NCBI GenBank assembly: GCA_947624585.1
Contig: CANQKZ010000005.1
Coordinates: 1 to 52,867 of the forward strand
Reading direction: 5' to 3'
Length of the DNA: 52,867 bases
Source of the DNA: an uncultured Oscillospiraceae bacterium
GTDB taxonomy: Bacteria; Bacillota; Clostridia; Oscillospirales; Oscillospiraceae
In this document: positions 11,379 to 51,947 of the stretch, one piece after another
How the letters are laid out: every line of letters starts with the position of its first letter
Numbering within the stretch: the first letter of the stretch is position 1
Program-made: the position numbers and the translations under genes
Notes under the pieces: generated by a model
The model's input: only the letters and a program-made list of their open reading frames with translations
Database searches by the model: none
Told to the model about the DNA's origin: nothing

Positions 11379-11439
11379 TAAAGGAACCTCTGAATAAATC
11401 GACGTGCCGAGGTTGGCGGGCAGATTTTTCGCCAGATCG

Positions 11440-11836
11440 ATACTAAGGAACATCTGAATAAATCGACGTGCCAAGATTGACGAGCAGATTTTTCGCCAGA
11501 TGAAGGCAAAAAATTGCGGGAATACTTTGTGTATTTCAAGATTTTTTGACGAAATATGGCGGAAAATCTGCCGTCAAGATTGGTGCGGCGATTTGTTCAG
11601 AGGTTCCCCAATACTCAACTAAAACCAGCCATTCGCGGCGGTCTTTTTTCGTCGTCGCGCGAGCCGCTTAACCTCGGGCTCGGCTCCTCCTCTCCCCACG
11701 CGACAAGCCGCGCGGGGACCCCGGATACTTCGTCAGGGGCCTTGGAAATACACGAAGTATTTCCCGCGCCGTTTTCCTCGTCTGATGCGAAAAATCCTCG
11801 CCGCTCGGTGTCTGCTTTTAGTTGAGTATTAAGTAT
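11440..11836. repeat. Family B MITE, long form, inserted in the outer A copy and itself interrupted by an inner A copy
   Basis: ATACTAA at 11440-11446 continues as TACTCAACTAAAACC at 11612 after the inner A and its duplicated CCAA; right end TTTTAGTTGAGTATTAAGTAT; carries the GC-rich cassette. Confidence 0.8.
11447..11607. repeat. Inner family A MITE (~161 bp)
   Basis: GGAACATCTGAATAAATC ... GATTTGTTCAGAGGTTCC. Flanked by CTAA (11443-11446) and CCAA (11608-11611), a near-perfect 4-bp duplication. Confidence 0.85.
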
Positions 11837-11973
11837 AAGGCAAAAAATCGCGGGAATACTTTGTGTATTTCAAAATTTTTTGACGAAATATGGCGGAAAA
11901 ACTGCCGTCAAGATCGGTGCGGCGATTTGTTCAGAGGTTCCTGAGGTTACATCGAAATTCCGAGGTGAAAACT

Positions 11974-14637
11974 ATGAAGCTTGTGGTCCTGGACGGCAAC
12001 AGCATCGTCAACCGCGCCTTTTTCGGGGTGCGTCCCCTGAACGCCTCCGACGGGACGCCCACCAACGCGGTGTTCGGGTTCATCAACATTCTCCGGCGCA
12101 TCCTCTCCGAGGAGGAGCCGGACGGCCTGTGCGTCACCTTCGACCTGCCGGAGCCCACCTTCCGCCATCTCAAGTACGACGGCTACAAGGCCACCCGCCA
12201 TAAGATGCCCGAGGAGCTGGCGGTACAGATGCCCATTCTGAAGGACACCCTGGACGCCATGAACATCCGCCGCTACGAGCTGGCGGGCTGGGAGGCGGAC
12301 GACCTTCTGGGCACCATCGCCGCCAAATGCGCCGGGGCGGGCTGGGAGTGTGTGGTCTGCACCGGGGACCGGGACAGCCTCCAGCTCGTCTCCGACACCA
12401 CCACGGTGGACCTCATCACCACCGCCAGGGGTCAGACGAACACGAAGCGCGTCACCCCGGAGGTCTTCCGGGAGGAGTACGGCTTCGACCCCATCCACAT
12501 GATCGACTTAAAGGCCCTGATGGGCGACACCTCCGACAACATCCCCGGCGTCCGGGGGGTGGGGGAGAAGACAGCCATGGCCCTTATCCAGCTCTACGGC
12601 TCTGTCGCCCGCCTTTACGAGAATATGCCGGAGATCTACCAGTCGCCTGACAAAAAGGCGACCCCCGCCCTTGTGAAGAAGCTCACCGAGGGCCGGGAGC
12701 TGGCGGAGCTGTCCTACGACCTGGCCGCCATCCGCCGCGAGGCGCCGCTGGAGTTCAAGCCGGAGGACAACCTTCTCCGGCCCGTGGACAACGACCGGCT
12801 CTATGAGATCTTTGCCCGCCTTGAGTTCCGCAAGCTCATCGACACCTACAAGCTGACCCCGCCGGCCCGCGCCGGGGCGACGGCGGAGCCCATGGATTTT
12901 CAGAGTGAGTGCGTCACCGTCAACCTGGCGGACGGCGATTCCCTGGACCGGTTCCGCGCCGCCCTGAAAAGCGGCCCCGCCGCCGTCCGCTTCTCCGAGG
13001 ACGGCTCCCTCTGCGCCGTCCGGGTGGACCCGGAGGAGGGGGACGCCCTGGGGTTCCTCTTAGACGAGTCCTCCCCCGTATACCGGGATGCCCTGGAGGC
13101 CCTCTGCGCACCGGAGGTCCGAAAATCCGGCCACGATGTCAAGGACACCCTGCGGCGTCTGGGCGGGATGGGCCTTCCCATGGAGGGCTGGGTCTTCGAC
13201 TCCGCCGTCGCCGCCTATCTGCTGGACCCCACCGCCAGCCGGTACGAGCTGTCCGGCCTGGCCTCCCGCTATTGCGGCTTCGAGATCGTCGACGGGGCCG
13301 GGGAGGACGGGCAGTTCTCCCTTTTAGGCGGCGTGAACCTGTCCTCCACCCTCCTGTCCGAGGCCGCCGCCGTGGCCTGCCTCCGGGAGAGGCTGACGGG
13401 GAAGCTTGCGGAGAACGGCCTCACCTGGCTCTTCGAGAACGCGGAGATGCCCCTGTGCCCGGTGCTGGCCCGGATGGAGCTGGCGGGCTTCCTGGTGGAC
13501 AGGCAGGCGCTGGCCCGGTTTGGCAAGGCCCTCTCCGGCCAGATCGACACCCTGACGGAGGAGATCTACGCCCTGGCGGGGACAAAATTCAACATAAACT
13601 CCCCCAAGCAGCTTGGAGAGGTGCTCTTTGAACGGCTGAGCCTGCCCACGGGCAAGAAGAACAGCCGCGGGTACTCCACCAACGTGGACGTGCTGGAGAA
13701 GCTCAGGCCCCTCCACCCCATCGTGGACAAGATCTTGGAGTTCCGGGAGCTTTCCAAGCTCAAATCCACCTACGCCGACGGCCTGGGAAAGGTCATCGCC
13801 CCCGACGGGCGCATCCACACCAATTTCCAGATGACCGTCACCGCCACAGGGCGTCTGAGCTCCACGGAGCCGAATCTTCAGAACATCCCCATCCGAAAGG
13901 AGCTGGGCGGGGAGATTCGGAAGATGTTCGTGGCCCCGGAGGGCCGGACCCTGGTGGACGCGGACTACAGCCAGATCGAGCTGCGCATTCTCGCCCACAT
14001 CTCCGGGGACGGGCACATGAAAAACGCCTTCCTCACCGGGGAGGACATCCACCGCTCCACCGCCGCCCAGGTCCTGGGCATCCCGCCGGAGCAGGTGACG
14101 CCCCAGCAGAGGAGCCACGCCAAGGCGGTGAACTTCGGCATCGTCTACGGCATCTCCGCCTTCTCCCTGTCCGAAGACATCGGCGTCTCGGTGGCGGAGG
14201 CGCGGGACTATATCAACACCTACATGGCCGCCTACAGGGGCGTGGCGGACTATATGGAGCGGGTCATCGCCGAGGCCAGGGAGTCCGGTGTTGTCCGCAC
14301 CCTCTACGGCCGCGTGCGGCCCATGCCGGAGCTGCGCGCCTCCAACTTCACCGTCCGTTCCTTCGGCGAGCGGGTGGCCCGGAATATGCCCATCCAGGGC
14401 ACGGCGGCGGACATCATGAAGATCGCCATGGTCGGCGCCGACCGGGCCCTCCGGGAGTCCGGTCTGGACGCCCGGCTCCTCCTCCAGGTCCATGACGAGC
14501 TCATCGCCGAGTGCGCGGAGGAGGACGCGGAGGCCGTGCGGCGGATCCTGATCCGCGAGATGGAGGGCGCGGCCAGCCTCACCGTCCCCCTCACCGTGGA
14601 GGCCCACACGGGCCGGAACTGGTACGAGGCGAAATGA
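11974..14637 (+). CDS. polA: DNA polymerase I
   Basis: MKLVVLDGNSIVNRAFFGVR (5' nuclease domain); VDADYSQIELRILAHISGD, HAKAVNFGIVYGIS, LLLQVHDELIAE. Codons 11890-11973 derive largely from the MITE and are excluded. Confidence 0.97.
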   Translation: MKLVVLDGNSIVNRAFFGVRPLNASDGTPTNAVFGFINILRRILSEEEPDGLCVTFDLPEPTFRHLKYDGYKATRHKMPEELAVQMPILKDTLDAMNIRRYELAGWEADDLLGTIAAKCAGAGWECVVCTGDRDSLQLVSDTTTVDLITTARGQTNTKRVTPEVFREEYGFDPIHMIDLKALMGDTSDNIPGVRGVGEKTAMALIQLYGSVARLYENMPEIYQSPDKKATPALVKKLTEGRELAELSYDLAAIRREAPLEFKPEDNLLRPVDNDRLYEIFARLEFRKLIDTYKLTPPARAGATAEPMDFQSECVTVNLADGDSLDRFRAALKSGPAAVRFSEDGSLCAVRVDPEEGDALGFLLDESSPVYRDALEALCAPEVRKSGHDVKDTLRRLGGMGLPMEGWVFDSAVAAYLLDPTASRYELSGLASRYCGFEIVDGAGEDGQFSLLGGVNLSSTLLSEAAAVACLRERLTGKLAENGLTWLFENAEMPLCPVLARMELAGFLVDRQALARFGKALSGQIDTLTEEIYALAGTKFNINSPKQLGEVLFERLSLPTGKKNSRGYSTNVDVLEKLRPLHPIVDKILEFRELSKLKSTYADGLGKVIAPDGRIHTNFQMTVTATGRLSSTEPNLQNIPIRKELGGEIRKMFVAPEGRTLVDADYSQIELRILAHISGDGHMKNAFLTGEDIHRSTAAQVLGIPPEQVTPQQRSHAKAVNFGIVYGISAFSLSEDIGVSVAEARDYINTYMAAYRGVADYMERVIAEARESGVVRTLYGRVRPMPELRASNFTVRSFGERVARNMPIQGTAADIMKIAMVGADRALRESGLDARLLLQVHDELIAECAEEDAEAVRRILIREMEGAASLTVPLTVEAHTGRNWYEAK

Positions 14638-40305: not shown

Positions 40306-40463
40306 GATACCCCCGAATAAATCGCCGCGTCGATCCCGGCGGCGGATCTCCCGCCATGTTTCGTCGAAAAAATTTTGAAAATCACAAAGTATCTCCACAA
40401 TTTTTGTCTTCATCTGGCGAAAAATCCGCGAAGGCTGCTCGGCGCTTCGATTTATACAGAGTA
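40306..40463. repeat. Degenerate family A MITE
   Basis: CCGAATAAATCGCCGCGTCG ... TTTCGTCGAAAAAATTTTGAAAATCACAAAGTAT ... TTCGATTTATACAGAG. Confidence 0.7.
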
Positions 40464-40789
40464 ATACTAATATCCAATCAAAGCGAGACATTCACGGCGG
40501 TCTTTTTCACGTCCGGCTTCGTCACGCGGCTTGGAAATACACAAAGTATTCCCTGCGCCGCCTTCCTCGCCCGACGCGAAAAATCCTCGCCGCTCGGTGT
40601 CTCCTTTCAATCGGATATTAGGGAGCCTCTGAATAAATCGAAGTGCCGAGATTGGCGAGCAGATTATTCGTCAGATGAAGTCAAAAAATTGTAGGAATAC
40701 TTTGTGTATTTCAAAATTTTTTGACGAAATATGGCGGAAAATCTGCCGTCAAGATCGGTGCTGCGATTTGTTCAGAGGTTCCTTAGTAT
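40464..40789. repeat. Family B MITE interrupted near its right end by family A
   Basis: ATACTAATATCCAATCAAAG ... CGGATATTAG | A copy | TTAGTAT. Confidence 0.88.
40622..40782. repeat. Family A MITE (161 bp) with exact TTAG duplication
   Basis: GGAGCCTCTGAATAAATC ... GATTTGTTCAGAGGTTCC flanked by TTAG (40618-40621) and TTAG (40783-40786). Confidence 0.9.
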
Positions 40790-40802
40790 AAAAATGTCAA
40801 AA

Positions 40803-45646: not shown

Positions 45647-46201
45647 TTGGATCAGGACAAAATACTCCCCTACGTGGAGCCGATCTTTCGCTTCTGCCGC
45701 AAAAGACTGCGCAGCCGCTGCGACGCGGAGGATCTGGCAAGCGAAATACTCTGCCATATCCTTGACGGTATGCGAAAATACGAGATCAAGTCGCTGGACG
45801 CATGGGTCTGGCGGGTCGCGCGGAACCGCTGCGCGCGATTTATCGGGAAGCAAAAGAAAGAGCGCACGGTTTTGTCGGAGGAGTACACCCACTCGGTTCC
45901 GGCGTATGACGACTACGCGGGGATCGACACGGAAAATACGGAGCGCGATTTTGAGACGGTTTTCCGGTATCTGCATACGCTTTCCCAAATGTACCGGGAT
46001 ATTTTGGTCGATCACTACATCGGCGAGCTGTCCGTCAGGGCGATCGCCGAAAAATACGCGCTCACGGAAGCCACCGTCAAATGGCGTCTGATACTAATAT
46101 TCAATCAAAATAAGACATTCGCGACGGTCTTTTTCGCGTCAAGCTTCGTCATACGGCTTGGAAATACATACAGTATTCCCGGCGCCGCCTTCCTCGCTTG
46201 A
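45647..46201 (+). pseudogene. ECF-type sigma factor, N-terminal part, interrupted by family B MITE
   Basis: DAEDLASEILCHIL, SLDAWVWRVARNRCARFIG, YIGELSVRAIAEKYALTEATVKWRL; then reads into the MITE and stops at 46199-46201. TTG start with GGGAGG SD. Confidence 0.82.
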
Positions 46202-46251
46202 CACGAAAAATCCTCGCCGCTCGGTGTCTTCTTTTAATTGAATATTAGTAT
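46091..46251. repeat. Family B MITE, short form (161 bp), inside the sigma-factor gene
   Basis: ATACTAATATTCAATCAAAA ... TTTTAATTGAATATTAGTAT; one visible difference from 51787-51947. Confidence 0.93.
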
Positions 46252-51786: not shown

Positions 51787-51947
51787 ATACTAATATTCAA
51801 TCAAAATAAGACATTCGCGACGGTCTTTTTCGCGTCAAGCTTCGTCATACGGCTTGGAAATACATAAAGTATTCCCGGCGCCGCCTTCCTCGCTTGACAC
51901 GAAAAATCCTCGCCGCTCGGTGTCTTCTTTTAATTGAATATTAGTAT
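51787..51947. repeat. Family B MITE, short form (161 bp)
   Basis: Nearly identical to 46091-46251; last T coincides with the stop codon complement of the HTH gene. Confidence 0.93.

Follow-up and report, generated by a model that had tools for sequence, protein, structure and literature searches.

The window analysed here is a stretch of 52,867 nucleotides from the genome of an uncultured gut Oscillospiraceae bacterium (G000), which is G+C-rich and represented by a 90.6%-complete assembly of 3.28 Mb in 290 contigs; positions given without a locus label are window coordinates. At 40306-40789, a full-length, 161-bp MITE of a family that we call A (40622..40782, plus strand; GGAGCCTCTGAATAAATCG...CGATTTGTTCAGAGGTTCC) lies in the right terminus of a MITE of another family, B. 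The terminal inverted repeats of A read GGA(A/G)CCTCTGAATAAATC. The main part of B spans 40465..40621 on the plus strand (TACTAATATCC...GGATATTAG) and resumes beyond A as TA at 40787-40788. Two plus-strand copies of the target duplication TTAG enclose A, the left one (40618..40621) corresponding to B bases 154-157 and the right one lying at 40783..40786. The initial annotation had described an A element inserted in the terminal repeat of B with an exact TTAG duplication, and this description is right to the base. Deleting A together with one TTAG regains the B end, as had also been proposed, and yields a 159-bp B (TACTAATATCC...GGATATTAGTA) flanked by its own 3-bp TNA duplication (TAA at 40462-40464 and 40789-40791). 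To the left, an older, diverged and end-truncated A (40309..40461, minus strand; 78% identity to the inner A, E=8e-28) is truncated at CAGAG and adjoins the TAA duplication of B; it lies beside B and occupies none of its CTAA sites. Elsewhere in the window, two intact plus-strand B copies have empty termini: one at 46092..46250 (TSD TGA/TGA), which serves as an empty-site paralogue, and one at 51788..51946 (TSD TTA/TTA).

A second cluster lies upstream of polA (11974-14634), confirmed as the gene for DNA polymerase I, and consists of a three-level nest on the plus strand. An inner A (11447..11607) is held by a B variant with TACTAATACTCAACTAAAA ends (11441..11835), which in turn is held by an outer A (11383..11941). 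The inner A had been placed at the CTAA of the opposite B terminus and does lie there, with one mismatch between its left (CTAA, 11443-11446) and right (CCAA, 11608-11611) duplications. The two clusters had also been read as repeats of one A-B-A arrangement. This parallel is only superficial, since the structures are unlike: an old, truncated A beside B at 40306, and an A in a B variant in an outer A at polA. The B variant sits at one fixed base of A, both at window position 11441 and at six other loci (L075 at 20, L088 at 7349, L090 at 12777, L097 at 3249, L112 at 3141 and L119 at 2777). Its junctions read CAA or CGA on the left and mostly TAA on the right. The basic A-with-B composite measures 323 bp (161 + 159 + 3). 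Given that the junction change is common to the seven loci, the composite of A with the B variant has itself been copied, for the most part with no clear duplication remaining, and at polA the inner A entered the B variant after the composite had formed.

Target rules of A and B and the choice of B ends

The census covered 1.33 of the 3.28 Mb, in contigs of which a part was picked for A ends or strong B matches; this choice should not strongly bias the count of A in B relative to A elsewhere. The sample contains 46 full-length A copies. Across G000, the A-end 12-mer with at most one mismatch gave 84 + 87 matches, compared to 9 for a reversed control pattern, and a full-length A as query gave 83 matches. 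A pattern scan of named genomes returned 14 matching stretches, all from uncultured Oscillospiraceae with isolate names of the form Lapin-*. ORF masking was unusable as a non-coding filter, with 94% masked in this G+C-rich genome, and local A+T matching was used instead. In searches against Rfam, all matches scored far short of the gathering threshold; the best were plant-type microRNA precursors on a palindrome, and these were discarded.

The IS5 group of the IS5 family has a YTAR target preference (PMC10359306), to which the initial annotation had assigned the CTAA and TTAG sites, and it had staked this reading on the length of the duplications. Among all paired A copies, the 35 exact duplications are 4 bp long; the YTAR-type sites CTAA (18) and TTAG (10) make up 28 of them, followed by TTAA (3) and others (4). 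B is more abundant than A: 88 copies are of intact length once A is removed and carry TNA duplications, exact in 59 (TTA 24, TAA 19, TCA 9, TGA 7), and the match between their flanks drops to background one base beyond the 3 bp. On account of these duplications, A and B obey different target rules, 4-bp YTAR and 3-bp TNA, respectively.

B termini had been suggested to be landing pads for A, with enrichment over CTAA/TTAG frequency set beforehand as the test. Such enrichment is present. Of the 28 insertions of full-length A at CTAA/TTAG, 22 fall within B, and nearly all of these at precisely the terminal CTAA. The emptied sequence offers 1,039 CTAA/TTAG sites that could be scored. Of these, 256 are in B or at most 10 bp from it, and A occupied 22 of the 256 versus 6 of the 783 elsewhere (Fisher P=2e-9). 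Uniform choice would place 6.9 insertions in B and choice matched for local A+T 12.0, and 22 was reached in 0 of 20,000 draws under either null; the excess over expectation is about 3.2-fold and falls to 1.8-fold once A+T is matched. In contigs C1-C9, a subset whose selection took no account of A, hits numbered 5 among 39 CTAA sites in B ends and 1 among 290 others.

Part of this enrichment is explained by the share of B, whose ends are A+T rich, in the CTAA/TTAG sites of a G+C-rich genome, which amounts to about a quarter. One might go further and suppose that A has no preference for B as such and takes any A+T-rich intergenic CTAA/TTAG, most of which happen to be B ends; we consider this possible, though rather unlikely. 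Where local A+T is at least 65%, the rates do converge (9/150 at B ends vs 3/115 outside, P=0.15). Logistic regression that includes A+T and the neighbouring A and T gives B an odds ratio of 3.7 with a borderline LR test (P=0.05). Base composition thus explains part of the excess, and much of the effect comes from the context offered by B, ATACTAATAT; outside B, TACTAATAT occurs at only two sites in the sample, too few to separate context from an effect of B. Composition nonetheless falls short of the observed count under the A+T-matched null. Moreover, TTAA sites within the same A+T-rich termini, though close neighbours of the CTAA that A enters, were hit in 0 of 129 cases, versus 22 of 256 for CTAA (P=1e-4). 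The two ends of B also fare unequally even though their outer bases are alike. End II (the GACACCGAGCGGCGAGG side) is hit at about five times the rate of end I (the GACATTCGCGACGG side), 14/96 vs 3/92 (P=0.009), and the bias persists when only ends sharing the outer TACTAATA are compared (11/63 vs 3/87, P=0.008), in a test made after the fact on 17 classified events.

The end bias and the relatedness of the two families could also be taken to mean that A is guided by homologous interiors or by a B transposase complex, and not by target bases alone. The interiors are indeed homologous, with local scores of 32-40 (12 A copies vs all B) against a mean of 13.1 and a maximum of 20 in 300 dinucleotide shuffles. 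Guidance of this kind is nevertheless improbable, considering that the entry point of A is fixed to the base and distant from the homologous stretch, that CTAA sites outside B are also hit, and that the favouring of end II is post hoc. Another explanation is a single joining of A to B, followed by dispersal of the two as one composite mobile element. Composites are mobile in G000, since the 323-bp nested A::B-variant composites spread as a unit, and a moving composite would likewise carry TNA duplications. Against this, the outer B end is cut to six bases of terminal repeat in the A-in-B cases, which makes a ready-made A+B unit an unlikely source, and A occurs at either end, in either orientation, in different B subfamilies and between unrelated flanks. 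A single joining is thus highly improbable. A copies in B are slightly closer kin (identity 0.895 vs 0.861), which leaves room for some of them having spread as A-B pairs.

The order of events can be read from the 15 A-in-B cases that have both B ends. Removing A restores B to 154-165 bp, with an exact TNA duplication in 11, and it follows that B was there first and A came second. The outer 300-bp flanks of the 15 cases have no mutual similarity, and each kind of B end was found to carry A in either orientation, which gives all four combinations. Both B ends, both orientations, four B duplications and unrelated flanks constitute within-genome evidence and argue for independent insertions. We therefore regard it as very probable that A is an IS5-group MITE that landed many times independently in B termini, a near-ideal and scarce target. 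A is a non-autonomous MITE, probably mobilised by an IS5-group transposase with a 4-bp YTAR target, nearly always CTAA/TTAG. B is a separate MITE that starts with TACTAATATTC and makes a 3-bp TNA duplication, the preceding A of which, together with the outer bases of B, gives ATA-CTAA-TAT, which would be a near-ideal target for A. Landing there splits the B terminal repeat between base 6 and base 7, and it would recur because B ends are near-ideal where A+T-rich CTAA sites are scarce. The pull of B would then lie in its target sequence and not in a protein bound to B, and B copies hit by A are presumably immobilised thereby.

Some A elements differ from these cases. At L131 (2963-3448), a B terminus was hit twice, by an A at CTAA and, a few bases deeper, by another A-like element. 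Mini A elements of 58-61 bp, which consist of the ends only, were observed at L075 (2318-2378), L094 (1139-1199), L117 (4637-4697) and L123 (9060-9118); at none of these four loci does the mini A lie in a B terminus.

Shared interior and parentage of the two families

Positions 13-129 of A align with positions 15-128 of B, giving a homologous interior of approximately 115 bp. The two families, compared here at A 40622-40782 and B 46092-46250, have unrelated terminal repeats. Both form full-length palindromic folds with a similar apex, GGAATAC..GTATTTC, and apex and arms also occur behind other IS5-like ends (GGAAGCGCTGATTAAATC) at L156-L163, in the sister species G025, G028 and G034. The L156-L163 loci are high-copy repeats, several of them at contig ends. 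With interior, apex and arms in common, A and B differ mainly in their outer 15-20 bp, the part of a MITE that decides which transposase acts on it. A tentative reading, which we think doubtful, is that A and B form one MITE lineage that has had two sets of transposase-recognition ends, of IS5 type (YTAR) and of TNA type, and in which the relative with IS5-type ends has come to parasitise the termini of its sibling, preferring one B end by recognising more than the CTAA core. If true, this would be a case of terminal-repeat swapping in bacteria followed by sibling parasitism. A common interior behind different ends suggests that MITEs may change the transposase that moves them.

Full-length, autonomous IS5-family elements with GGAACCTCTG ends, for which the initial annotation had advised a search, are found in related genera. 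L210, L211 and L212, from other genera of the family, are IS5-family elements of about 1.2 kb each that carry the A terminal repeat (GGAACCTCTGA.. ends), with TSDs CTAT in L210 and TTAG in L211; against the NCBIfam IS5 model, which has a cut-off of 140, the L210 transposase scored 314 bits. A transposase of this kind probably moves A in G000. The interior of A does not appear to be an internal deletion of L210-L212, given that only the terminal 16-20 bp align. Another element, L178, has ends related to those of A with three mismatches, and its IS5-type transposase had no match in G000, an absence that is weak because the assembly is about 91% complete.

For B, no autonomous element with TACTAATATTC ends was found that could be its parent. 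Searches of the genus with PF01609, PF13340 and PF13359 found that B ends flank no transposase except at L184, and that close A ends flank none. L184 (1289-2981) first resembled an autonomous B of 1.69 kb, since B halves with an 88% match to the MITE enclose its IS1182-family transposase (378 bits). An IS1182 parent is ruled out, as comparison with other IS1182 elements places the IS1182 ends (CAGTCTGTCAAA..) just within two copies of the B apex palindrome (GGGAATACATACAGTATTCCC, 21 bp), which is duplicated there. L184 thus represents an IS1182 that entered a B copy at its apex, a third nested insertion. Some members of the IS1182 family are reported to target palindromes (PMC4923244). Other IS1182 copies, at L181, L182, L196 and L255, apparently also lie between duplicated palindromes, which are probably terminators or hairpins. 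L204, an IS5-type element with a frameshifted DUF4096/DDE pair (TGA/TACTAGGGCTTG...GGCCTAGTA/TGA), is like B in duplication type and first five bases only, and is at most a lead to the parent of B. The 3-bp TNA duplication of B hints at another IS5-type group. Unpaired B ends occur in L071 near 3340 and L105 near 3150, with short reading frames (MDSIINELYYGNIRPVEQMGRLTPE...) in which no transposase was recognised; they adjoin a common conserved inner stretch and represent a further repeat family.

Relation to known insertions in terminal repeats

IS231A, a DDE element of the IS4 family, favours the terminal repeats of Tn4430 and makes longer duplications than A. IS4321 and IS5075 (IS1111 group of IS110) are described as inserting in the terminal inverted repeats of the Tn21 family (Partridge and Hall, 2003, cited in PMC8269217). 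They return repeatedly to a single position within the terminal repeat of a different transposon, and the recurrent insertion of A at one base position of the B terminal repeat is behaviour of the same kind. The IS110/IS1111 families pick their targets with a guide RNA (PMC11208160, PMC11187229). Whereas IS4321 and IS5075 are autonomous DEDD elements, A and B are short MITEs, and A has IS5-type ends and a 4-bp duplication. A shares with the IS5 group the 4-bp YTAR duplication (PMC10359306) and with L210-L212 the terminal repeat, but it has no transposase, its interior does not come from L210-L212, and it accumulates in a single repeat family. Like other bacterial MITEs and mosaic elements (PMC10969869; TIMEs, PMC4133298), A and B are short, palindromic and non-coding, with terminal repeats, target duplications and a high copy number. 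They are set apart from the elements of the MITE review by reciprocal nesting and by two end types on one interior; a word search of that review (PMC10969869) for nesting returned no mention.

The many insertions of one bacterial MITE family at one base of another constitute a natural data set for deriving the target rule of an IS5-type transposase from a genome, with built-in controls, namely hit and unhit ends and the neighbouring TTAA sites. They also suggest that mobile elements may limit each other, the ends of one family being a scarce target for another, with each hit expected to disable the host copy. Insertion in the terminal repeats of another element is known behaviour. What is new is that both partners here are MITE families with a common core, a homologous interior behind ends in which they mainly differ.
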